The notes below the pieces were generated by a model. That model was not told the origin of the DNA and made no database searches. It worked only from the letters and a program-made list of their open reading frames with translations. Positions 38,617 through 49,757 of a DNA stretch of 49,757 nucleotides are shown here, piece by piece. Made by a program: the position numbers and the translations under genes. The stretch comes from Bacteroidales bacterium (GTDB lineage Bacteria > Bacteroidota > Bacteroidia > Bacteroidales > WCHB1-69). Location: the NCBI GenBank assembly GCA_017962275.1, contig JAGCVQ010000049.1, forward strand, positions 1 through 49,757, given 5' to 3'. The stretch's first letter is position 1. The number at the start of each line of letters is the position of its first letter.

Positions 38617-38747
38617 GTTGGAGCAGGCAGGAGCAGACGGGGTTTGCAGCGGCAAAAACTAATAAGAGTGAGACAATAAAAACTAATAATAGCAAAGCGA
38701 CAAAAACTAATGACAGTCAAAGTATCAATCTCTTCCCAAAATTTTCC

Positions 38748-38755
38748 TATCTTTG
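38748..38755 (+). promoter_or_regulatory. -7 promoter element upstream of the defence operon
   Basis: TATCTTTG at 38748-38755 is a perfect consensus match. Transcription from here would give a leader of nearly 280 bases before the helicase gene and would include the long hairpin at 38861-38973. Confidence 0.5.
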
Positions 38756-38860
38756 CAGCCCAAAACAATCAGAAATATAAACTTTAACGAATAATATATA
38801 CGAAACAATAGAAGAATAAAAGAGTAAATAACATATTATAAAGCGTTTTTGCTTTTCGAG

Positions 38861-38973
38861 TATACCTGAAATCGCCAAATTTCAATACTTAATGCACGAG
38901 AAAGCAGAAATGCTCACGGTGTATCCGTGGGCTTTCTTGTTTGCATTAAGGGTTTTGGCGAACCTCAGGTATA
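38861..38973 (+). ncRNA. Candidate structured RNA, long imperfect hairpin upstream of the defence operon
   Basis: The two halves pair in the right order. TATACCTGA (38861-38869) pairs with TCAGGTATA (38965-38973). TCGCCAAA pairs with TTTTGGCGA (38953-38961). CTTAATGCA (38888-38896) pairs with TGCATTAAG (38942-38950). GAGAAAGC pairs with GCTTTCTT. A small apical hairpin CACGG-TGTAT-CCGTG closes it. The internal loops are asymmetric. A rod with a central bubble recalls 6S-type RNAs, but I cannot confirm that. A second small stem (AGGCG/CGCCT, 39013-39025) lies just before the helicase ATG. It could be an independent small RNA or a leader structure. Confidence 0.6.
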
Positions 38974-39039
38974 GACAGAAAGACTCACGGATTCTTTTTG
39001 TGACACTCCGAAAGGCGAAGCGCCTAAAACGCCAAGCCT

Positions 39040-42000
39040 ATGAGCACCAAGTTTTTTAACAATATCGAGACGAGGCTGATGGACAAGTTCCACGGCATCG
39101 CCTCCGCGATGGCCAACTTCGACATCTTCCATGCCGTGGTTGGCTATTTTCGTTCCAGCGGCTACTTCAAACTGCGCAAGGAGCTGGAGAATGTCAGCGA
39201 AATCCGCATCCTTGTCGGCATCAACATCGACAACCTCTTCCGCCAATCGCAAGCCGCCGGCAAGCTGTTTTTCGGCGACAAGGAGGCGAGTCTTGAACAA
39301 TATTGTGAGGATTTTCTCCGCGATGTCAATCAATCGGAATACGCTTCTGAAGTGGATGAAGGCATCCGCCAGTTCTGCGCCGACATTGCCGACGGACGTT
39401 TGCAGTTGCGCATCCACCCCACCAAGGATCTTCACGCAAAGTTTTACCTCTGTCTGCCGAAAAACCACAGCGAGCATAGCGACGGCTGGGTCATTATGGG
39501 CAGCAGTAACCTCAGCGCGCAAGGGCTTGGTGCCACCGAACCACCTCGCTATGAATTGAATGTGGCCATGAAGGACTATGACGATGTGCATTACTGCGAG
39601 GAAGAGTTTCAGCATCTTTGGAACGATGCCATACCGGTGACTATGGACGATGTGAACCGCTTTGTGGATGGAACTCATCTCGCTCCACCCGAACATCAAC
39701 CAACGCCCTACGAGCTTTATATGCGAATGCTCATCGACCATTTCGGCAATCAGGTCGAAGACCATTTCGTCCCTCATCTTCCCGACAATTACGACGACCT
39801 CACCTATCAGCGCGATGCCGTGGTGCAAGGGTACGACATTATGATGCGGCACGGCGGATGCTTTATCGCCGATGTGGTGGGTTTGGGCAAAACCGTGGTG
39901 GCGGCCATGATTGCACAACGGTTTATCGCCGCCAATGGCGACAACACCCGCATCCTCGTCATCTTCCCGCCTTCGGTGCAAAAAAACTGGGAGGACACAT
40001 TCAGGGATTTCCAAATCAAAAACAACTATAGCCAATTCGTCAGCAATGGCAGTTTGGAAAAAATCATCGAGGGCACCAACAACTACAATCAGCCTGGTTG
40101 CTACGACCTCGTTATCGTCGATGAGGCGCACAATTTCCGGCACGACAGCAACTGCAACTACGACCTGCTGCAGCGCATCTGCAAGTCGGCACGGTCGAAC
40201 AAGGGCAATGTTGACGGAAACAAACGCGTGCTTTTGCTTTCGGCCACGCCGCTCAACAACACGCCCGAGGACATCAAGAACCAATTGCTGCTGTTTCAGG
40301 ATGTCGCTCGCTGTACGATTGACGGTGTCAACAATATTGCCGACACTTTTGCCCCGTGGATCAAGGAATTCAAGAGCCTTATGTCGCAGCGTCGCACGAT
40401 GAGCGCCGGTTACCTTACCAAACGTATTGATGCTATTAATCAGGAACTTCGTCACAAGGTGTTGGAGAAAGTGATGGTGCGCCGTACCCGCAGCAATATC
40501 CAGCATGAGCCCCGCTATGCCAACGAGATACATTTCCCACAGTTACTTGATCCCACCGACCGCACCTATCAGATGTCGCCCGAATTGCTGAAACTTTTCA
40601 TTGACACTTATATAAAATTGGTAGATACACCATCGGCCAATCTGAAGGAGGTGAACTCGGATATATTCAACGGAAGCGGCCTGCATTATGCCCGTTATCG
40701 TGCGGTAGAATATTGTCCCTCATACAAAGTCCCTTCCGGTAAAATGGCCAAACACATGGCCGATTCGCTTGCTTCCATCTACCAAACACACATGGTCAAA
40801 CGGTTGGAAAGCAGTTTTGATGCCTTTCGTCGCTCGCTCCACACTCTTTTAGATGCTACAAGGGGAATGATAAAAATGTTCCAAGAAGACAAAGTCATCA
40901 TTGCCCCCGAGCTGAATGTGAAAAAACTGCAGTCCGACGGGGTCGAGTTGGATGAGATTATAGAACTGGCCATCGGTAAAGGATTCGACCAGAAAGAGAT
41001 ACTCTTCCACGCGGCCGATTTCAAGCCCGATTTCCTGCCGATGTTGGAATATGATGCCGATGTGCTGGACAAGCTGTGCCAACGATGGGACACAGTGAAA
41101 TCCGACCCCAAGCTGGAACTTTTCATCAATATGCTGCAGGGGGAACTGTTCGACAAGGAGAAGAATCCCGGCGGTAAATTAGTGGTGTTCAGCGAAAGCG
41201 TGGATACCGTCAACTATCTGGAAAAAGAGTTGAAAGAGCGTCTTCACCGTCAAGACATTCTGGCCGTGTGCGCCAGAAATCGCAAGCGACTTCAGAAAAC
41301 GATCCAGGCTAACTTCGATGCCAAGTACAAAGAAAAGTGGCATAATGACTACAACATCATGATTACATCCGATGTGTTGGCCGAAGGCGTGAACCTGCAC
41401 AGGGCGAATGTCATTGTCAATTACGACAGCCCGTGGAATGCCACACGATTGATGCAACGCATCGGTCGTGTGAACCGTATCGGCTCCACCGCCACCGCCA
41501 TCCACAACTACATGTTTTACCCTTCCGACCCCGGCGATGCCATCATCAGTTTGAAGAAGAACTCCCTCATCAAGCTGCAGAGTTTCCATTCCGCCCTCGG
41601 CGAGGATACCAAAATCTATTCGCACGACGAGCTGGTACACGAGTTCAAACTTTTCAACACCGACGTGCGTGATGAAACCGACTGCAGTTTAGAGCTGCTG
41701 CGCGAAGTGCGCGCCCTTCACGACAACCATCCTTCGCTCTACCGCCGCATCAAGAATCTTCCGCCGAAAAGTCGCTGTGCCCGTCTCGGAGAGACGACAC
41801 ATCACACCATCGTCTATCTCGCCTCTCCCCTCAAAAAAGCCTTCTACCTCGTCGGCGACATCCCCCGCGAACTCTCCTTCCTCGAAGCCGCCGACATCTT
41901 CCATGCGGAACCCGACGAGAAAGCGGTGCCCTTCGGCGACTGCATACAGCGGCATTACGAACAGGTACAGAGTGCGATACGGCAATACACCCTCGACCAG

Positions 42001-42350: not shown

Positions 42351-45278
42351 ATGAATACCGAAACCCTCCGTCAGATTTTCAAGTCGCCGTTCGACTATAC
42401 CACTTACAGCCGCGAAATCGTGCATCGTCTTTTCGGTTGCCACGATGTGGTCTCGCGTCCCGAATGGCTCGACACCAACGCCGAAGGCGACCAGAGTTTT
42501 TTCATCGGTCAGATGGATGATGCCGACCATCGTCTGCTTGGCTTCTTCTACACCCGTGTGGCCGATGGCGGCGATGTGCGGCGCAAGCGCGTGGGCCTGC
42601 GCAAGCTGATCAGTCCCTATCTGAAATACGATGTCGATGGGGCCATTGCCGTTTTCGACGACGGCCGGCACTGGCGGTTGTCCTACATCTGCGACCTCAA
42701 GGAGGGCAGCACCTCGGCGAAACGGTTCTCCTATATCTTGGGTGACGAAAACGGGCAATACAAAACGCCGCTTGAGCGATTGGAGAAGGTGGCCAAACTG
42801 AATGGACACTTAACGCTGTCCGACCTCAGGGAATCCTTCTCGGTGGATGCGCTCAGCGATGAGTTTTTCGACGAATACCATCTCCATTACGACCGGATAG
42901 TGGCGAACCTCACGCAAGCTTATCGCAGAGACGTACCATGGCGCGTCTCTACCGACGGAACATCCGATACCCGTCTCCACGACTATGTCAAAAAGATGAT
43001 GGGCCGCATCGTGTTCCTCCATTTTTTGCAGAAAAAAGGCTGGCTCAACGACAATCCGACGTTCCTGCGCGACCTGTTTCTCTCCAGTCCTCATCAAGCC
43101 GATTTTCTCGAACAGGTCTTGGAACCGCTCTTTTTCGGAATCTTCAACACCGAGCCGGAGCAGCGTGAGAAACTGTTTGCCGACGAACAGTGGGACCGGG
43201 GTTTGTTGAGACAGTGGGAGCATTTGCCGTACCTCAACGGCGGTTTGTTCGAGCGTGACGAAGTGGATAAGATGAATATCCGGCTGCCGTCTTCATTATT
43301 CAACGACCTTTTCACCTTCTTGGCCTCCTACAACTTCACCGTCGATGAAAACGACCCCGACGATGCCGAGATCGGTGTCGATCCCGAAATGCTGGGCAAG
43401 ATTTTCGAGAGTCTGTTGGAGGACAACAAGGCCAAGGGCGCGTTCTACACCCCGAAGGAGATTGTGCGGTACATGTGCAAAGAGTCGTTGATTGCGTATC
43501 TCAATGAACAATGTACAATGAACAATGTACAATTATCAAGTGCGATTCGGTCGTTTGTTGAGAATCACGAACTACCCGGTGAATTGGAACCCTATCGTGA
43601 GATTCTCGACCGTGCCTTGCGCGAGGTGAAGATCTGCGACCCGGCCATTGGTTCAGGTGCGTTCCCGATGGGATTGTTGAACGAATTGTGGCGGTGTAGG
43701 GAGGCAATATCGTTATCCCCTGTTGTAGAGACGCAAAATTTTGCGTCTCCATCGATGGGTCCATCGTCATCAACCCAATCCCGTGCCGCCCTCAAGCGCG
43801 AGATCATTGAAAACAACATCTACGGGGTCGATATCGAGCGGGGTGCCATCGACATTGCCCGTCTGCGGTTCTGGTTGAGCATCGTGGTGGACAGCGAGGA
43901 GCCGCAGGCCCTGCCCAACTTCGACTACAAGTTCATGCAGGGCAACAGTCTGATAGAGAGCTTCGAAGGGGTGGATCTAAGTCGTATGATGAGCAGCGAA
44001 GGTCAGCACAGCAGTTTGGGGAAGGGCAGGCAGAAAGCGGGGGCTAACCAGTTGGGCATCGAGTTCGTGAGCACCGACACCAAGCGCAACCTCCAGCTGA
44101 TGTTGCGGGAGTACTTCAGCCTCACCGACCACGTGAAGAAGGCGGAAGCGCGGCGCGAGATCAACGACAGCGTAAAGAGCTACATCCGTCATCAGGATCT
44201 CCGTCCCGCCGCCGAAGCCCGTCTCTCCTCCCTCGACCCTTCCGCCAACCAGGAGTTCTTCCTCTGGCACACCTGGTTCAAGGACATCTTCGACAGGGGT
44301 GGGTTTGACATAGTGGTGGGGAACCCGCCGTATGTGGTAGTTGGTGCAGACGGTACATACAGTTCCTACAAAACCGCATCTTGTCTAGATTTGTATGCTT
44401 TCTTTTACGAAAGAGCAGTCAACATATTAAATAAGAATGGTATTTTGTCTTTTATCACATCATCTCTTTTTGTCAAAGGGTTGAAATTCCATACCCTTCG
44501 CAAATTCCTGCAAGAGAATGTTTCCGTAGTAGCTTTCAGAATAGAGGGCGATGATGTTTTCAAAAATGCTGAAATTCCAACAGCGACTTTTATAGCAAAA
44601 AAATGCAAGTCGAGTTGGCGTTTTGAGGATTTTTATGCAGATGGCAATATAATTGAACATGTCATTTCAGGAACCGTTCCTCTCTCGTCTATTTCTTCTA
44701 TCATGCGGGGCTTTGAAATAGGACGAAATATGGTTGGATGCAACGGTCAACACAAAATCCTTACAGGTTCAGATGTTTCCAAATATCACTATACAAAGCT
44801 GTCATATATCAGCCAATCTGTTTTAGAGGCTTTTTCTAAAGACAACAAATATTTCAGCAAAGAAAGAATCCTATTGCGAGAAACGGGTAGCTTTCTTACT
44901 GCGGTATATCTTGGTAATGAAACTATCTATTCAAACAGAAGCCTTTATTCTATTTTAATCACCGATGGTCGATTGAGTACAAAGTACGTGTTAGCATTAC
45001 TGAACTCATCTCTACTCCAATGGTATTATTCAACAATGTTCAAAGGCGAGACAGAACTCTTTCCGAAAATACGAATAGCCCAAGCGAAGAAGTTACCTAT
45101 ACCGATAGCGAGCAAAGACAAGCAACAACCCATCATCTCCTTGGTTGACCAAATCCTTGCCGTGAAGAGAACCAACTCTTCCGCCGACACGTCGGCTTTG
45201 GAACGGGAGATTGACAGGTTGGTGTATGGGTTGTATGGGTTGAAGGAGGAGGAAGTGAAGGTGGTGGAAGGGAAATGA
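42351..45278 (+). CDS. Eco57I-like adenine DNA methyltransferase (restriction-modification)
   Basis: 975 residues. A long N-terminal region (1-360) includes KSPFDYTTYSREIVHRLFG and a possible nuclease or regulatory domain I cannot assign. Then comes GAFYTPKEIVRYM, SAM-binding motif I DPAIGSGAF (from 430) and the catalytic motif IV NPPY (658-661), typical of N6-adenine methyltransferases. The C-terminal part would be the target-recognition domain, followed by a Leu-rich tail (LEREIDRLVYGLYGL). DNA up to about 44330 is GC-rich, 44340-45100 is AT-rich, and the last 150 bases are GC-rich again, which points to exchange of the recognition region. Two intergenic-type repeats lie in frame at 43502-43535 and 43728-43749. 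Confidence 0.88.
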   Translation: MNTETLRQIFKSPFDYTTYSREIVHRLFGCHDVVSRPEWLDTNAEGDQSFFIGQMDDADHRLLGFFYTRVADGGDVRRKRVGLRKLISPYLKYDVDGAIAVFDDGRHWRLSYICDLKEGSTSAKRFSYILGDENGQYKTPLERLEKVAKLNGHLTLSDLRESFSVDALSDEFFDEYHLHYDRIVANLTQAYRRDVPWRVSTDGTSDTRLHDYVKKMMGRIVFLHFLQKKGWLNDNPTFLRDLFLSSPHQADFLEQVLEPLFFGIFNTEPEQREKLFADEQWDRGLLRQWEHLPYLNGGLFERDEVDKMNIRLPSSLFNDLFTFLASYNFTVDENDPDDAEIGVDPEMLGKIFESLLEDNKAKGAFYTPKEIVRYMCKESLIAYLNEQCTMNNVQLSSAIRSFVENHELPGELEPYREILDRALREVKICDPAIGSGAFPMGLLNELWRCREAISLSPVVETQNFASPSMGPSSSTQSRAALKREIIENNIYGVDIERGAIDIARLRFWLSIVVDSEEPQALPNFDYKFMQGNSLIESFEGVDLSRMMSSEGQHSSLGKGRQKAGANQLGIEFVSTDTKRNLQLMLREYFSLTDHVKKAEARREINDSVKSYIRHQDLRPAAEARLSSLDPSANQEFFLWHTWFKDIFDRGGFDIVVGNPPYVVVGADGTYSSYKTASCLDLYAFFYERAVNILNKNGILSFITSSLFVKGLKFHTLRKFLQENVSVVAFRIEGDDVFKNAEIPTATFIAKKCKSSWRFEDFYADGNIIEHVISGTVPLSSISSIMRGFEIGRNMVGCNGQHKILTGSDVSKYHYTKLSYISQSVLEAFSKDNKYFSKERILLRETGSFLTAVYLGNETIYSNRSLYSILITDGRLSTKYVLALLNSSLLQWYYSTMFKGETELFPKIRIAQAKKLPIPIASKDKQQPIISLVDQILAVKRTNSSADTSALEREIDRLVYGLYGLKEEEVKVVEGK
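43502..43535 (+). repeat. 14-bp tandem repeat inside the methyltransferase gene
   Basis: CAATGAACAATGTA occurs twice in perfect tandem (43502-43515 and 43516-43529), followed by a partial third unit. It is a spacer-type repeat but here encodes residues about 384-395 in frame, between the YTPKEIVRYM block and motif I. Confidence 0.9.
43728..43749. repeat. Perfect 22-bp palindrome inside the methyltransferase gene
   Basis: GAGACGCAAAA/TTTTGCGTCTC is a perfect inverted repeat preceded by TGTTGTA. Such palindromes are, to my knowledge, intergenic repeats in Bacteroidetes genomes. Here it is translated (VETQNFAS) just after motif I without breaking the frame. Confidence 0.9.
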
Positions 45279-45412
45279 TTGTGTACGGTAATTATTTATT
45301 TCACAATATTTTACATTGATGTATTTTAATTTAACAGTATATTATTTTAATGATACAGTAAAGCTAATAATAACTTTTTGTAAAAATCAATACTACATAT
45401 TGAAAATAATTG

Positions 45413-45420
45413 TATTTTTG
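45413..45420 (+). promoter_or_regulatory. -7 promoter element of the RES-domain gene
   Basis: TATTTTTG at 45413-45420, 24 bases before the ATG at 45445, fits TAnnTTTG, so the gene has its own promoter. Confidence 0.55.
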
Positions 45421-45444
45421 CGGCGTATTTAAATATCTCATATT

Positions 45445-46258
45445 ATGAAATCCATAAATATTACTGAGTGCATCAGTCTGTTATTAAACAAACAATTTAA
45501 CACGCCCGACGAGGTAGAACAAATAATAACTTCTATTCATGGCCCGCAATTAATACCAAGCCTGATATTATCATCAAATCAATACATCTATAGAGCCAGG
45601 GTCATCAACAATATCAAAGAGATAGTGAACAACAATTCATTAAGCCACCTTCCTCCAGAAAAAAAATAATTCCTACAAAAGGGCTAGCACACCTGCAAAC
45701 ACAATGTTTTATGGTATTTCTAGCGATGAACAGTGGAGTAGTGTCTATGGCTGTTGTGCTGAGATCTGCGATTGTTTTCGCAATCCAAGAGACAAGTCTA
45801 TGCGGTATAACGTTGTGATAGGCCAATGGCAAACGACAATAGACTTGAAGTTTGCACAAATTATTAACCCAAACGGAAGCAACAAATCGGAATCTTTCAA
45901 AAATGACAAAGAATACAGAAAGATAGCATCATCAGTCGGGCTACAATCAACAGATTCTATGGCTCTCATGAAGTATTTAAACCATGAATTTACTAAAATT
46001 GTAGAAAATAATGATGATAAAGGTTATTGGGTGTTTGCCATATTATCTAAACTATTGCTCAAGACAGGCTTATATGATGGAATAATATACGAGAGTGTGC
46101 AATCTTTTGCTCCTGGTGCTGAAAATGTACATTGCGTAGCAATACTCCCCTCTGTTGTGGATAAACACATGGTTTTTAGAAAGGCAGAATCACTTGAGAT
46201 AGAATTTAGCAATTATAATCAAGATGCATCAATAATATCTGTCAAAAAAATTCTTTAA
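45445..46258 (+). pseudogene. RES-domain protein gene interrupted by a one-base frameshift
   Basis: Two frames, 45445-45669 and 45704-46258, join into one 270-residue protein if one A is removed from the A8 run at 45659-45666. The joined protein has the RES layout: YRAR (Arg50/52), then KRASTPANTMFYGISSDE, then AEI (Glu106), then GIIYESVQ...GAENVHCVAILP, matching the family's R...E...S residues and its G-I-x-Y-P-S block. RES domains degrade NAD in Xre-RES toxin-antitoxin systems. No Xre antitoxin gene is beside it. The poly-A tract allows slippage, phase variation, genuine decay or a sequencing error. The DNA is AT-rich, unlike the methyltransferase 5' part. Confidence 0.7.
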
Positions 46259-46351
46259 TCTACAAAAAAAGGATTCTTCCACGAATCACCGAATATCGAA
46301 ACGAAATAAAGAAGTTTGCACTTGACTCCTTGATCCTCTACCACGGAATAG

Positions 46352-46507
46352 AATACTTGCAAAACCTATGACAACCATATTCTCGCTGCGAAGAAATCTT
46401 ATTCCTTTGCCGACACATCGGTACTGGAGCGTGAGATTGATGGGTTGGTGTATGGGTTGTGTGGGTTGACGGAGGGAAAAGTGGAGGTGGTGGAAAAGGG
46501 TGAATGA
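46352..46507 (+). pseudogene. Remnant of a methyltransferase 3' end, copy 2
   Basis: From 46370 the frame reads DNHILAAKKSYSFADTSVLE, then REIDGLVYGLCGLTEGKVEV, then VEKGE and a stop. It aligns with the intact tail of the upstream methyltransferase (DQILAVKRTNSSADTSALE, then REIDRLVYGLYGLKEEEVKV). No start or catalytic part remains; a stop lies at 46349. The segment is GC-rich between AT-rich flanks. It is a second, diverged copy of the tail, probably left by recombination. Confidence 0.85.
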
Positions 46508-46553
46508 TTTCACGTTATGCTTTATGTGTTTTGAGACGAATGAATAGATTTTT

Positions 46554-46561
46554 TATTTTTG
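46554..46561 (+). promoter_or_regulatory. -7 promoter element of the membrane/coiled-coil gene
   Basis: TATTTTTG at 46554-46561, 15 bases before the ATG at 46577. It excludes the in-frame TTG at 46559 as a start. Confidence 0.55.
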
Positions 46562-46576
46562 CAGAAAAATAGAAAT

Positions 46577-47191
46577 ATGGGAAAGAAGAAAAATTGTTTT
46601 GAAATTGTCAATCTTATATTGTGTTTTATGGCAATTGTTTTGAGCATTATAGCAATAAGTAGAACTTGCTATCGTACAGTTGAATTAGGCTTTGATTACC
46701 TTGGAATCATTGTCGGAATATTAGCCATTTTGGTGACGTTTCTTGTTGGATGGAACATCTATTCCGCCATAGATGCAAAAGAAAAGATTAAATTTTACCA
46801 AGACGAGATTGATAGATTAAAAACCTTACAAGAGGAACAAATGAAAGCATTTGAAAAGAAATCGTATAAAATTCAAGGAGATTTATACATTACGACCGTA
46901 TCTTTAGCTGAAAAAATAAACACCCCGAGTGCGTTGTCTCTATACACAGACATGGTTCTCAACATGGTACTGTCTATTGATTCACTATCTCGGGCAGAAT
47001 CATTTGCTTTTGCTGATATAAAATTGAAACATTACTGTATCATTATAAAGTCAGACTTAGAGATGTTTAAGAAAAACATTGAAAATGAGACAAAGAAAGG
47101 TATTCTTGAGCACTTGTTTGAAATTCCTAATAAAGGAAAAATGAAAGATTTTAAAGAATTCAAGGAAATAATTCTAATGTTATGTTCGTAA
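46577..47191 (+). CDS. Two-helix membrane protein with coiled-coil, unknown function
   Basis: 204 residues from the ATG at 46577. Two hydrophobic helices (about 9-28 and 37-63) are followed by a charged coiled-coil (about 68-98, KEKIKFYQDEIDRLKTLQEE) and an all-helical cytosolic domain. No family is recognised. It is AT-rich and lies in the island between two methyltransferase-tail remnants, convergent with a protease gene. Membrane-anchored helical proteins next to proteases or NADases are common in abortive-infection systems, so an effector role is possible but only by context. Confidence 0.65.
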   Translation: MGKKKNCFEIVNLILCFMAIVLSIIAISRTCYRTVELGFDYLGIIVGILAILVTFLVGWNIYSAIDAKEKIKFYQDEIDRLKTLQEEQMKAFEKKSYKIQGDLYITTVSLAEKINTPSALSLYTDMVLNMVLSIDSLSRAESFAFADIKLKHYCIIIKSDLEMFKKNIENETKKGILEHLFEIPNKGKMKDFKEFKEIILMLCS

Positions 47192-47354
47192 AGTCAATGT
47201 TATTTTGTCAAATTTTTATCACACTTTCAAGTTCCTAAAACTAAATTGTTTTGAATTACTCTTTCTATATTATCTACCATACGTGCCTCGTTAGTTTCTT
47301 TTTTCGTGTATAGATACAAACCATCCTATGGCTCAAAAAAGGAATCATAATTGA

Positions 47355-48386
47355 TCAAGTAGAAGTACTGATGGAGTAGTATCTGCCAGAAGGAATTGCC
47401 AGAATCGTGTTAGGATTACACGTTATGTTTGATAAATAACTTGATGACAAACATATGCCAAATCCCATAATATCATAACGTCCTTGGTTGGAACCACCTT
47501 GGTTGTCAAATGGTAGTGAAGTGACAGTACCTACGACTAATCCGTGTTCGTTTATAACAGGGCTTCCGCTATTTCCTCCTTTTACTCGGCAATTAATCAT
47601 AAAGCAATCTGTGTTTGACAAATAAGACTTGGCTTCTGCCACCACTTGTCCATCCGACGCCTTTTGTGTAAAGGGGAGGAATGTGTTTATAGATCCTGTT
47701 TCAGATATTAATACAGTATCCATGCCAGTAATAGGTGGATAACCCATTACAAGAACATCATCCAAAACATTTGGCTCACCTAACATAAATGGTTCTAATG
47801 AAATGTCTTCGTCTGCCCTGATAATGGCAAGGTCAATGTAGCTATTGCTGTCTAAAAGGATTTCTGATATTTTTATCTTTTTCCCATTTTGATACAGCAA
47901 AGAAAACTGCGGCATATCTAAAATACAATGTCCAGCGGTAACAAACATGTTTTCTCCGATGTAATATGCCGTTCCAATATCATTGTCGCCATTTTTGCTT
48001 ATGCCAACAAGCGGAACAACAGATTTATAGAAATGTTCTCGAATAAAAGGGAAACCGTTATAGGCAAAATCATAATAACCATACTTGAGTTGGGCCTTAA
48101 ATAGTTCTGGCTTTTGAAAATTATCTGGACGTAATCCGACAAAAAACACATCATTAAGGCAATCAACACCATTTGTTTTTAATCGTACTAACAAATTGTC
48201 CTTCATCATCTTCTTGCAAATCGAAGACAAATAAGAAACCATTCCCATATTTATGTTTCTGTTCCCTTCTTTGTCATCGTAAAAGTATTCAGGACGGTCT
48301 TTTACAAACTCAAATAGAGACCTTCCAAGAATCCCTTTTGCACTATAGTCAAAAAACTCATATAGTTTTGGCACAATTAACTCCAT
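47355..48386 (-). CDS. Trypsin-like serine protease without signal peptide
   Basis: 343 residues. The catalytic triad is visible: His153 in VTAGHC, Asp185 in SYIDLAII and Ser273 in GGNSGSP. The first 120 residues form a separate domain with helices and several aromatic residues, with no signal peptide or transmembrane segment, so the enzyme is probably cytosolic. Cytosolic trypsin-like proteases occur in several bacterial defence systems, where they cleave a partner protein. The neighbour on the other side of a 163-base AT-rich gap is a convergent membrane protein. It is AT-rich and has its own promoter. No substrate can be inferred. Confidence 0.85.
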   Translation of the reverse strand: MELIVPKLYEFFDYSAKGILGRSLFEFVKDRPEYFYDDKEGNRNINMGMVSYLSSICKKMMKDNLLVRLKTNGVDCLNDVFFVGLRPDNFQKPELFKAQLKYGYYDFAYNGFPFIREHFYKSVVPLVGISKNGDNDIGTAYYIGENMFVTAGHCILDMPQFSLLYQNGKKIKISEILLDSNSYIDLAIIRADEDISLEPFMLGEPNVLDDVLVMGYPPITGMDTVLISETGSINTFLPFTQKASDGQVVAEAKSYLSNTDCFMINCRVKGGNSGSPVINEHGLVVGTVTSLPFDNQGGSNQGRYDIMGFGICLSSSYLSNITCNPNTILAIPSGRYYSISTST

Positions 48387-48401
48387 CCGTCATTTTTTTT
48401 G

Positions 48402-48409
48402 CAAAGATA
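48402..48409 (-). promoter_or_regulatory. -7 promoter element of the protease gene
   Basis: TATCTTTG on the minus strand (48402-48409), 15 bases before the ATG at 48386, is a perfect match. Confidence 0.55.
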
Positions 48410-48460
48410 TACAAATTTTCGTCATTAAATCAAAATAGTTGCCGATAATTTTTTTTTCAG

Positions 48461-48604
48461 ATGAACCACATTATCCTGAAGTTCCGCCACTACGAGGACG
48501 CCTCCCTCGCCTACACCGCCTCCAACTGCCATGCCTCCGGCACCCGCATCGGGCTGATGGACAGCACGGGGCCGGGGGAAGCGATGGTGAGCGGGGTGGA
48601 GTGA
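48461..48604 (+). CDS. Short 47-residue reading frame, probably a gene fragment
   Basis: ATG to TGA, 47 codons, reading MNHIILKFRHYEDASLAYTA, then SNCHASGTRIGLMDSTGPGE, then AMVSGVE. It is GC-rich with host-like codons, unlike the AT-rich gene before it, and it lies just ahead of the third methyltransferase-tail remnant. I do not recognise it. It may be a small intact protein or the broken N-terminus of a larger gene. Confidence 0.4.
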   Translation: MNHIILKFRHYEDASLAYTASNCHASGTRIGLMDSTGPGEAMVSGVE

Positions 48605-48620
48605 TGTCGCATCTCAGCCC

Positions 48621-48653
48621 ACAGACATGTCGGCTTTGAAACGTGAGATTTGA
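48621..48653 (+). pseudogene. Remnant of a methyltransferase 3' end, copy 3
   Basis: The frame TDMSALKREI plus stop matches ADTSALEREID of the intact methyltransferase tail, and the DNA around it (GACATGTCGGCTTTGAAACG) is close to the intact GACACGTCGGCTTTGGAACG. Only about 33 bases remain. It ends 4 bases from the transposase stop codon on the other strand. Confidence 0.65.
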
Positions 48654-48656
48654 GTG

Positions 48657-49733
48657 TCACCATCCGGTGGCCGGTTCTGTCCAATTACAGCGGACTCTGT
48701 CCGCTCGAACCAAGCACTTCCCCATCTCATTGAGCGCAACGAAGCGGTAGCGCAGGGACGAGACAGGAAGCGGGGTGAAAAGGATATTCTTGGCCTCGGC
48801 CTTGCGGCGGAGAGCCTCTTCGGTGGCACTGAGAATGGATGGGGCAAGGAAGGTTTGCTCGGTTGGCTCCAAAAGCAGCAGCTTCCCCTTCGAGCAGGCA
48901 TCAAAATAGACACCACCCGGCTTGTAAAACCGTTCCTGCGGAGAACCATCGGCCGGAAAACCGTCGAAAAGGAGGACTACCAACGGGAATCCTTGTTCCC
49001 GCAAGTTGCGTGCGATAATCTGCTCACCTTTGCTGATGGCTGCGGTATAGGTGACAGCCCCGTTTTTGGCAGATTCCAATGCAGTTTGCAACCGTTGCCG
49101 CATCTGCTCTTCGGTTGCATTTCTCGACATTTCCACCATCTGCCGGTCTGGCCAATCCAACAGAAAATGGTTGCCTAAAGAAGTGAAAAACAGTCCACAA
49201 GACTCAGTATTTCGACGCAAACAAAACAGATTAGGGTTTTGCTTGCGTAGCCAGGCACGCTCCGCGTTGGCATACACGTAGTTTATCATCGCTTGAAGTT
49301 GCCCCTTGTGGGTGAGCACGCGGTAATGAGGAGGACCGTCGTACAGATTCCCTTCAAAGCCTAACTTTCTCGCCTCTGCTTTACACCCCTGCATATACCC
49401 CCGCACCACCTCTTTGATGCTGCGCTTCATGCTTCTCCGGACTTGTAGGACAATGTGGTGATGGTCGGGCATCACCTTGTCAGCCAGGATTTTGATTTCG
49501 GGGCAAAGCTGTAACATGCGGGGTTGTTGGTCGATAACTGCCCAACCGATGGCCGTTTTTTCCACCACGGCCTTACTACCGTTGTGCCCAAGAGTGCCAA
49601 AGAGCGGCTGGCGACCGTTGGCCACCATGGTCACATGTACAATGCACGGTTTTCGCCAAGCACCTGGTTTCAGCCAAGTGAAAGTTTCGTTTGGTAAATT
49701 GTTGCTTATTTCGTTGTTCATTGTTTTTTGCAA
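48657..49733 (-). CDS. REP-associated tyrosine transposase (RAYT, IS200-like Y1 family)
   Basis: 358 residues (354 if the ATG at 49721 is used). It has the HUH nuclease layout: an N-terminal beta strand VHVTMVANGRQPLFG, the metal-binding motif MPDHHHIVL (His91-His93), and a helix with a candidate nucleophile Tyr113 in VVRGYMQGCKAEA. A C-terminal extension of about 150 residues is present. It has no accessory IS genes around it. RAYTs cut and join single-stranded DNA at REP palindromes, and REP-like elements are present at 2018-2056 and 26180-26216. It closes the defence island. Confidence 0.85.
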   Translation of the reverse strand: MQKTMNNEISNNLPNETFTWLKPGAWRKPCIVHVTMVANGRQPLFGTLGHNGSKAVVEKTAIGWAVIDQQPRMLQLCPEIKILADKVMPDHHHIVLQVRRSMKRSIKEVVRGYMQGCKAEARKLGFEGNLYDGPPHYRVLTHKGQLQAMINYVYANAERAWLRKQNPNLFCLRRNTESCGLFFTSLGNHFLLDWPDRQMVEMSRNATEEQMRQRLQTALESAKNGAVTYTAAISKGEQIIARNLREQGFPLVVLLFDGFPADGSPQERFYKPGGVYFDACSKGKLLLLEPTEQTFLAPSILSATEEALRRKAEAKNILFTPLPVSSLRYRFVALNEMGKCLVRADRVRCNWTEPATGW

Positions 49734-49757
49734 GCATTTGTTTTTTTGGGTTTGGGG

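Follow-up and report, generated by a model that had tools for sequence, protein, structure and literature searches.

Stacked 3' tails behind a Bacteroidales DNA methyltransferase suggest serial exchange of its recognition domain and of the genes that follow it

Defence hotspots are known. By what means genes enter and leave defence islands is a matter of debate, and integrases or transposons take part in many of the routes that can be seen. Integrases insert at tRNA genes and other gene ends and leave the displaced end as a repeat, and in integrative islands at gene 3' ends such gene-end repeats flank the foreign cargo. Three further systems are described in the available parts of published accounts: the orphan cdiA-CT/cdiI and rhs-CT modules, which are displaced gene-end modules (Poole et al. 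2011, PMC3150448), the methyltransferases of Helicobacter pylori, in which recognition domains are exchanged and domains move (PMC3983042), and the BREX-related (BR) type-2 systems, composed of an HKD-endoDNase, a Swi2/Snf2 helicase and an N6-methyltransferase (PMC12839542). Here we describe a stretch of 49,757 nucleotides from a Bacteroidales bacterium of the lineage WCHB1-69 (contig JAGCVQ010000049.1 of GenBank assembly GCA_017962275.1, forward strand, positions 1 to 49,757; below, the window). It carries an Eco57I-type DNA methyltransferase gene preceded by a helicase gene and followed by further copies of its own 3' end, here called tails, with AT-rich cargo genes in between. The genome comprises 2.77 Mb in 105 contigs, of which the window is C104. 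Very likely this arrangement arose by serial homologous exchange between relatives at conserved patches, with the tails left behind as fossils.

The locus resembles each of the described systems in part. Like the CDI (contact-dependent inhibition) and Rhs arrays, it has displaced same-strand 3' fragments arrayed downstream of an intact parent gene, each then followed by its own small gene, and the exchange described there between strains, with junctions at a short conserved coding motif, has its likeness here (PMC3150448). However, the CDI/Rhs fragment keeps the variable toxin domain behind the motif, whereas here the fragment is the conserved very end and lacks the variable domain; a DNA methyltransferase is the parent gene; and no toxin paired with a cognate immunity gene was seen among the cargo, which is mixed (AAA ATPases, AbiEii, AbiH, SIR2, TIR, trypsin-like and HNH proteins). 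As in H. pylori, recognition domains appear to change by recombination at conserved flanks, but that account, in its available part, concerns mainly type I S and type III M genes and mentions neither cargo nor displaced tails (PMC3983042). With BR type-2 the locus shares a PLD/HKD nuclease with SNF2 helicase next to an adenine methyltransferase (PMC12839542); it differs in that the methyltransferase ends in a TaqI_C recognition domain and that the DUF499 ATPase, named in the available text for type-1, which type-2 reportedly mirrors, was not found among the seven proteins scanned, all from the window. As in a defence hotspot, variable cargo lies behind something conserved, here the helicase-methyltransferase pair, which is the fixed point while the chromosomal flanks differ between species. 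Exchange of recognition domains, displaced gene-end modules and defence hotspots (for example PMC10121019) are each known. What appears new is their combination behind a restriction-modification methyltransferase; we found no report of orphan 3' tails in that position in the open-licence literature searched, mostly titles and the beginnings of abstracts.

Coordinates of all features are collected in Table 1. The last 122 nt of the methyltransferase gene (45148-45269) recur ungapped at 46374-46495 with 78% identity, in an open frame with its stop ending at 46507, as a preliminary description of the window had pointed out. This frame matches residues 918-973 of the methyltransferase only, and searches of the own genome with the methyltransferase or the tail DNA (E <= 0.001) gave no places beyond these two. 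The third tail, a scrap earlier placed at 48621-48653, was also recovered, with 27 of 32 positions matching. The best match per shuffle in 60 dinucleotide shuffles of 46510-49757 was 19-24 of 32, and the best in positions 1-45147 of the window was 22. A chance origin of this scrap was rejected, as 27 of 32 was reached by none of the 60 shuffles (maximum 24). Its place is in the right flank, immediately after a 90-nt repeat, and two related loci, L036 and L121, have this piece at the corresponding position. As both are 98% identical to the window in this flank, the scrap does not count as a separate copy in each genome.

The locus was compared with 79 distinct loci of relatives (the best 80 of 96; numbered with L), the nearest named ones being mostly rumen and gut Bacteroidales metagenome-assembled genomes. 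Within the genus, 18 of 40 genomes, counting that of the window, had a match to the methyltransferase. In six others of these genomes the protein was 82-87% identical up to residue 724-752, with a weak match or none in the recognition domain (TRD), and the DNA alignments of the window to L034, L036 and L063 all end at 44333-44334, which is the NPPY motif. Pairs were counted among 70 loci (of the 79 plus the window; those with a methyltransferase cut by the contig end or without a recognisable NPPY-type motif were left out), giving 2415 pairs. The core was at least 80% identical in 216 of these, of which 206 had a TRD below 45% or unmatched, 8 a TRD of at least 70%, and 16 common cargo within 3 kb. 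Conversely, TRDs at least 80% identical sat on cores below 70% in 16 pairs. Cargo within 3 kb was common in 3 of the 61 pairs with a TRD of at least 70%, as compared with 59 of 2329 pairs with a TRD below 45% or unmatched. The loci are mosaics in which TRD and cargo are hardly linked. Because only 3 of 61 same-TRD pairs have common cargo, the two are not one travelling unit, and the earlier proposal that recognition domain, tail and cargo move together had to be given up.

The junctions of the mosaic often fall in the tail. Locus L063 is a clear chimera: up to position 2540 its TRD is that of L037 (85%), and from position 2466, which lies in the tail, it matches L036 for 3.1 kb, cargo included, at 95.2%. 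The window and L111 have the TRD in common to within 27 nt of the stop but not the cargo. Cargo at least 80% identical was combined with a TRD below 45% in 22 pairs, and in 10 of these the start of the shared block fell within the tail (-169 to -20 from the stop, in one member or both). Among 31 listed pairs with a TRD at least 80% identical and no common cargo, the TRD homology ended between -171 and +4, counted likewise, in both members in 27. Locus L042 is 98.8% identical to L043 and 99.5% to L077 through the TRD to the stop and shares its cargo with neither, whereas the cargo of L043 and L077 is common at 99%; to judge from these sequences, this looks like a recent exchange behind the stop.

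Leftover tails were sought, using 53 tail sequences, on both sides of the methyltransferase wherever the contig extended for 1.5 kb or more, which left 65 loci for the downstream and 64 for the upstream side. (Loci L116, L117 and L121 come from tail or methyltransferase searches and are excluded from these and the pair counts.) Orphan tails in sense orientation were found downstream in 14 of 65 loci, the window included; the 14 also include L093, where the tail is the gene's own frame-broken end, and the weak case L105. Three of 65 loci had an antisense tail downstream, found by single queries only (E 2e-5 to 4e-5). On the upstream side, 3 of 64 had a sense tail, that of L095 being the end of another methyltransferase-like frame, and none of 64 an antisense tail. 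The order tail, cargo, tail was seen in the window, in L116 (with a 514-aa NERD-domain gene), in L036 and L063 (a 259-aa gene), in L046 (HNH) and in L057 (AAA_14/DUF4143). In the related cases L112 and L040 the end of the methyltransferase is a different one, and a cargo gene comes before the orphan tail. In L034, L038, L076, L052 and L053 the methyltransferase has another C-terminus and the canonical tail follows directly, with no cargo between. Cargo behind orphan tails is akin to cargo directly behind a methyltransferase elsewhere (the 372-aa protein of L034 to one of L047, 44%; the second gene of L040 to one of L039, 40%). As these relatives are distant, they indicate that the same kinds of gene occupy both positions, and no single displacement event is demonstrated by them.

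The tails were then set against each other over the same 87 nt. Tail 1 and tail 2 of the window are 83.9% identical, while the best values elsewhere, among 12 loci, are 90.8% for tail 1 (L063 and L121) and 86.2% for tail 2 (L063), the latter by a small margin over its neighbour. The two tails of L116 are 79.3% alike, yet 87.4% and 85.1% identical to tail 1 of the window. Since each is somewhat closer to the tail of another species than to the neighbouring one, the tails of one locus probably arrived separately. What follows them in the window has relatives elsewhere too: 45170-45435, the end of tail 1 with leader 1, is 87% identical to the orphan tail and leader of L034, where other cargo follows, and 86% to L121, while tail 2 with leader 2 aligns to L111 (46374-46575, 71%) and to L078 (46408-46569, 74%). 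Two tails with one methyltransferase in the locus could also be explained by a second complete methyltransferase, duplicated in tandem in place and decayed to its end. The own-genome searches, however, reported no other methyltransferase part downstream, the cargo between the tails differs between species, and duplication in place is disfavoured by the tail similarities and because each layer of the window has relatives elsewhere, so that we regard this explanation as extremely improbable.

Gene-end repeats around foreign cargo are also what an integrative island in a gene 3' end would leave, and here they flank 1-2 kb of cargo in the window, L116, L036/L063, L046 and L057. Small islands could thus have integrated site-specifically in the 3' end of the methyltransferase gene, restoring the gene and leaving the displaced end as the flanking repeat. 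Against this, a family scan of the cargo (123 of 163 non-redundant proteins, 3 of them from the window) gave no integrase family among those matching at least 2 of the 123 proteins (25 of 61 families listed) and none in the cargo of the window, so that no sign of a dedicated integrase was seen there. The tails of the window are 16-22% different from one another and tail length is not the same in all loci, where a short identical core would be expected, the junctions are spread over about 170 nt, and the TRD upstream is replaced too, back to the NPPY motif. Site-specific islands are therefore a very unlikely source of the pattern, in our estimate.

On the right the variable block of the window is bounded by the 90-nt repeat. 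Repeat copies aside, the stretch of the window between tail and repeat is not shared with L036, and L121 shares only leader 1 of it; relative to these two loci the right border is the repeat at 48499, not the third tail. The repeat gave 33 matches in the searched loci, which are 32 places, as L067 and L120 are one locus. It lies everywhere on the strand of the methyltransferase or of the leftover tail; L119, with two copies, is a nominal exception. This locus is on contig C43 of genome G000, the end of which overlaps, as its reverse complement, the right end of the window (about 49617-49757, some 141 bases; the last 40 bases were compared by script and the first 60 by eye). On account of this overlap C43 is the continuation of the window, and since it joins in reverse the L119 copies point the same way too. 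Besides these two further copies, C43 holds a 104-aa gene also present in L034 and L063. Matches to the repeat were found in 29 of 40 genomes of the genus, many on contigs on which no methyltransferase was seen. Among 14 loci, 21 shared blocks were found in this region; 8 of them begin at the repeat in both genomes concerned, and 4 finish there. We take the repeat as a frequent right-hand crossover patch; perhaps it is a repetitive extragenic palindromic (REP)-type element moved by the adjoining transposase-like gene. The repeat separates gene cassettes in the window, L034, L035, L036, L038, L063, L111, L116, L117, L119 and L121, and a second hairpin (ATCCCC...GGGGAT) often comes behind it.

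The uniform direction of the copies and the shared blocks that start or end at the repeat would also be expected if the repeat and the REP-transposase-like gene drove the cassettes and the tails had no part in it. Among the loci searched, though, the repeat occurs only in the genus of the window, and junctions in the tail are found without it, for example in L042, L044 and L102, which makes such a role for the repeat very improbable.

In two loci the helicase-methyltransferase pair itself is lost. In L121 the helicase gene is cut after about 65 codons, the shared stretch ending at window position 39233, and a GmrSD gene, a fragment of TRD and tail and then the cargo of L034 follow. In L117 the shared helicase stretch ends at window position 39232, and a leucine-rich-repeat gene and a tail scrap follow. 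This suggests a left-hand exchange point inside the helicase gene. The helicase break is the same in these two species (L121 1-5062, L117 1485-4669), and the genes that precede the remaining methyltransferase tail are unrelated.

We propose the following course of exchange, in which a two-gene restriction-modification-like system, the PLD/SNF2 helicase with the Eco57I-type methyltransferase, stands at the left of a hypervariable region. The TRD and the genes behind the methyltransferase would be replaced repeatedly by homologous recombination, presumably of the RecA type, between relatives. There would be three crossover zones, namely the core as far as the NPPY motif, the tail, taken as the final 60-170 nt of the gene, and, in this genus, the 90-nt palindromic repeat. 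Incoming DNA would cross over in the core on its left side and in a tail or the repeat on its right. If it brought its own tail and cargo and crossed over in the resident tail, the new piece would come to lie in front and the resident tail and cargo would be pushed downstream, and with repeated displacement the tails would stack in layers. Incoming DNA with a different C-terminus would leave the resident tail directly behind the gene, and exchange of only the part behind the tail would separate TRD and cargo, which matches their separation in the pair counts. If events took this order, the upper layer of the window would consist of the TRD, tail 1, leader 1 and cargo 1, and the lower layer of tail 2, leader 2 and cargo 2, with tail 3 as an older trace in the flank. 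The preliminary description had already regarded the locus as a turnover site that leaves old tails downstream. This idea is borne out by cores kept with other TRDs and other cargo, by the downstream sense tails, by the tail-cargo-tail order in other species and by chimeras that switch in the tail. The tails aligned at the DNA level and the arrangement varied between relatives, so that neither similarity at chance level nor a fixed arrangement was seen.

Several points weigh against serial exchange at the tails. Orphan tails were not detectable in 51 of 65 loci. Of the 22 shared-cargo blocks, 12 begin only beyond the tail, at +40 to +2909, and the homology ends elsewhere in 4 of the 31 listed same-TRD pairs, so that other junctions exist as well. 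Selection for intact genes also leaves junctions at gene ends; position alone is thus no proof of a crossover in the tail, and the junction positions are given without a random expectation. The pair counts moreover take kin loci as if independent. With 70-100 nt at 85-90% identity, the tail matches offer little length and similarity for efficient recombination between these species, and closer donors must be assumed. A before-and-after pair, with the same lower layer directly behind the active gene of the other member at high identity, was not met among the loci compared. The assemblies are metagenome-assembled genomes whose contigs break off in this region, one of them (G009) with 7% contamination. 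Some of this could be explained if the genes behind the methyltransferase formed a generic defence island, with genes gained and lost along many routes, and if replacement of the TRD alone had produced the orphan tails. The orphan tails directly behind methyltransferases of different C-terminus (L034, L038, L076, L052 and L053), the independent change of TRD and cargo and the 12 blocks that start behind the tail would all fit such an island. It would, however, leave unexplained the tail-cargo-tail order of the window, L116, L036/L063, L046 and L057, and also the blocks that start inside the tail and run through the cargo. We consider it unlikely, and serial exchange at conserved patches is retained as the reading that we favour.

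The cargo differs in composition from its surroundings. In 500-nt steps from 45001 to 48500 the GC content is 30-39%, against 51-59% in neighbouring steps outside the TRD, in agreement with the AT-richness first noted. The two pieces of cargo 1 may be one gene whose frame is broken between 45669 and 45704. This region (45445-46258) had been described as a RES-domain gene, an assignment that we could not support. Neither piece had a Pfam match up to E = 10, the second piece found only itself in 104 genomes of the family and a 395-genome sample of the phylum and nothing in plasmids, and a single-sequence fold had a pLDDT of 36. In cargo 2a, previously called a membrane protein, hydrophobic stretches at the N-terminus were visible by eye, while all Pfam families stayed below the cut-off. 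Only the protease, cargo 2b, has a clear family among the cargo of the window, and here the first assignment was right.

Among the 123 cargo proteins scanned, the recurring Pfam families included AAA_15 (7 proteins), AAA_21 (6), DUF2971 (5), AbiEii (4), AAA_14 (4) and KAP (3), followed by SIR2_2, AbiH, TIR_2, Trypsin_2 and HNH_2 (2 each); no family exceeded 7. PADLOC models of the AAA type (such as AriA, GajA, PtuA, AbiLi and Old) were matched most, largely by the same few ATPases. The cargo of L111 is AbiH and DUF3644/PDC-S19, and in one scan 7 of 10 cargo proteins lacked a known family. Defence-type families in related loci thus comprise OLD-like AAA, AbiEii, AbiH, SIR2, TIR, GmrSD and DUF3644, counted without a control set, and enrichment of the cargo in defence genes is plausible; an anti-phage role is presumed. 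The expectation that new defence genes arrive at this site holds only in part: some of the 123 proteins from the window and its relatives have defence-type families, and in the window the only clear family is that of the protease.

The motif TAnnTTTG, which we take to be the Bacteroidales -7 box, was found between the methyltransferase and the first gene in 12 of 28 gaps of at least 50 nt, where 2.4 would be expected from mononucleotide shuffles. In 29 of 67 loci a sense gene starts within 50 nt behind the methyltransferase. These counts support promoter-bearing leaders in some loci only.

Table 1. Features of the window in order of position (all on contig JAGCVQ010000049.1)
Feature	Position	Strand	Remarks
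Leader of helicase gene; left edge of the part common to relatives	38732..39039	+	Homology starts ~200-310 nt before helicase start in 5/7 other loci
PLD-like domain + SNF2 helicase, 1100 aa	39040..42342	+	Pfam PLDc_2, SNF2-rel_dom, Helicase_C
Methyltransferase, conserved core up to NPPY motif	42351..44333	+	Eco57I family; DNA identity to L034/L036 91-93%, to L063 83%
Methyltransferase, recognition domain (TRD), exchanged part	44334..45147	+	TaqI_C; same TRD only in L111 and L066 among compared loci
Tail 1, end of intact methyltransferase	45148..45278	+	90.8% to L063 and L121 tails over 87 nt; to tail 2 83.9%
Leader 1, intergenic	45279..45444	+	TAnnTTTG at 45413
Cargo 1, first piece, 74 aa	45445..45669	+	No Pfam match
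Cargo 1, second piece, 184 aa	45704..46258	+	No match in Pfam, NCBIfam or PADLOC-type family scans
Tail 2, orphan tail	46352..46507	+	Aligned part 46374-46495
Leader 2	46508..46576	+	TAnnTTTG at 46554
Cargo 2a, likely membrane protein with long helical part (by eye)	46577..47191	+	43% homologue is cargo behind L052 methyltransferase
Cargo 2b, trypsin-like protease	47355..48386	-	Trypsin_2 E 1.4e-14; 64% homologue is L043 cargo
90-nt repeat (second repeat), imperfect palindrome; right border of variable block	48499..48598 (90-nt core 48505-48594)	+	98.2% identity to L036 and L121 starts here
Tail 3, scrap in right flank	48619..48650	+	32 nt, 27/32 (84%)
REP-associated-transposase-like gene	48657..49733	-	NCBIfam NF047646 E 1e-4, 22 bits, cut-off 80

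The methyltransferase (42351-45278) matched Eco57I (E 1.1e-31) and TaqI_C (E 1.1e-21) in Pfam and REase_MTase_IIG in PADLOC (E 1.3e-74), and with its C-terminal recognition domain it is in this part built like a Type IIG enzyme. Pfam and NCBIfam scans of the same frame gave no nuclease family; the PLD domain sits on the adjoining helicase. The match to DISARM_DrmD (150 bits, cut-off 610) and that to the BREX PglX model BREX_1_MTaseX (86 bits, cut-off 500) stayed far below threshold, and no specific search was made for PglZ. Of 67 loci with 3.3 kb or more of sequence upstream of the methyltransferase, 64 have a helicase homologue there at a distance of no more than 4.5 kb, and the two are on this ground a stable pair. 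It looks like a restriction-modification system with its PLD nuclease on the helicase. The beginning of the methyltransferase was also noticed as a second copy in L080 (G009:C11) and L081 (G006:C32), with 96-97% identity over 341-350 residues; the genomes of both carry a longer locus besides. One copy stops at the contig edge and the other has in-frame stops further on.

In the 5 of 7 other loci compared in which the helicase leader is shared, nothing was common to the left of it, and no leader match was seen in L078 and L081. Eight left flanks from the genus (1.7-9 kb each, 28 pairs) had nothing in common further out than about 355 nt from the helicase. The right flanks of L036 and L063 can be aligned (87%), L111 has similar-looking genes there, and the window, L034, L035 and L037 have others. 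Given these different flanks, the pair sits at several chromosomal places. A fixed chromosomal site was not seen in this genus, since the left flanks are unshared and the right flanks partly different.

A restriction-modification-like gene itself thus appears to carry the exchange points, and the leftover ends make the order of past exchanges readable. The tail fossils would be a simple marker, taken from sequence only, for cargo that once lay next to such a system, and proteins without a family among this cargo are candidate defence genes. Loci L042, L043 and L077 are good material for mapping a recent exchange. One may go further, tentatively and with a good deal of doubt, and regard the conserved tail and the 90-nt repeat as standing docking patches. 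Cassettes, some with a promoter-bearing leader, would be loaded behind the gene and older ones pushed to the right, much as in an integron but free of an integrase and by ordinary recombination. If this were true, the loci would hold an ordered record of past defences in rumen Bacteroidales, and a position between two tails would be a guide to unknown defence genes.

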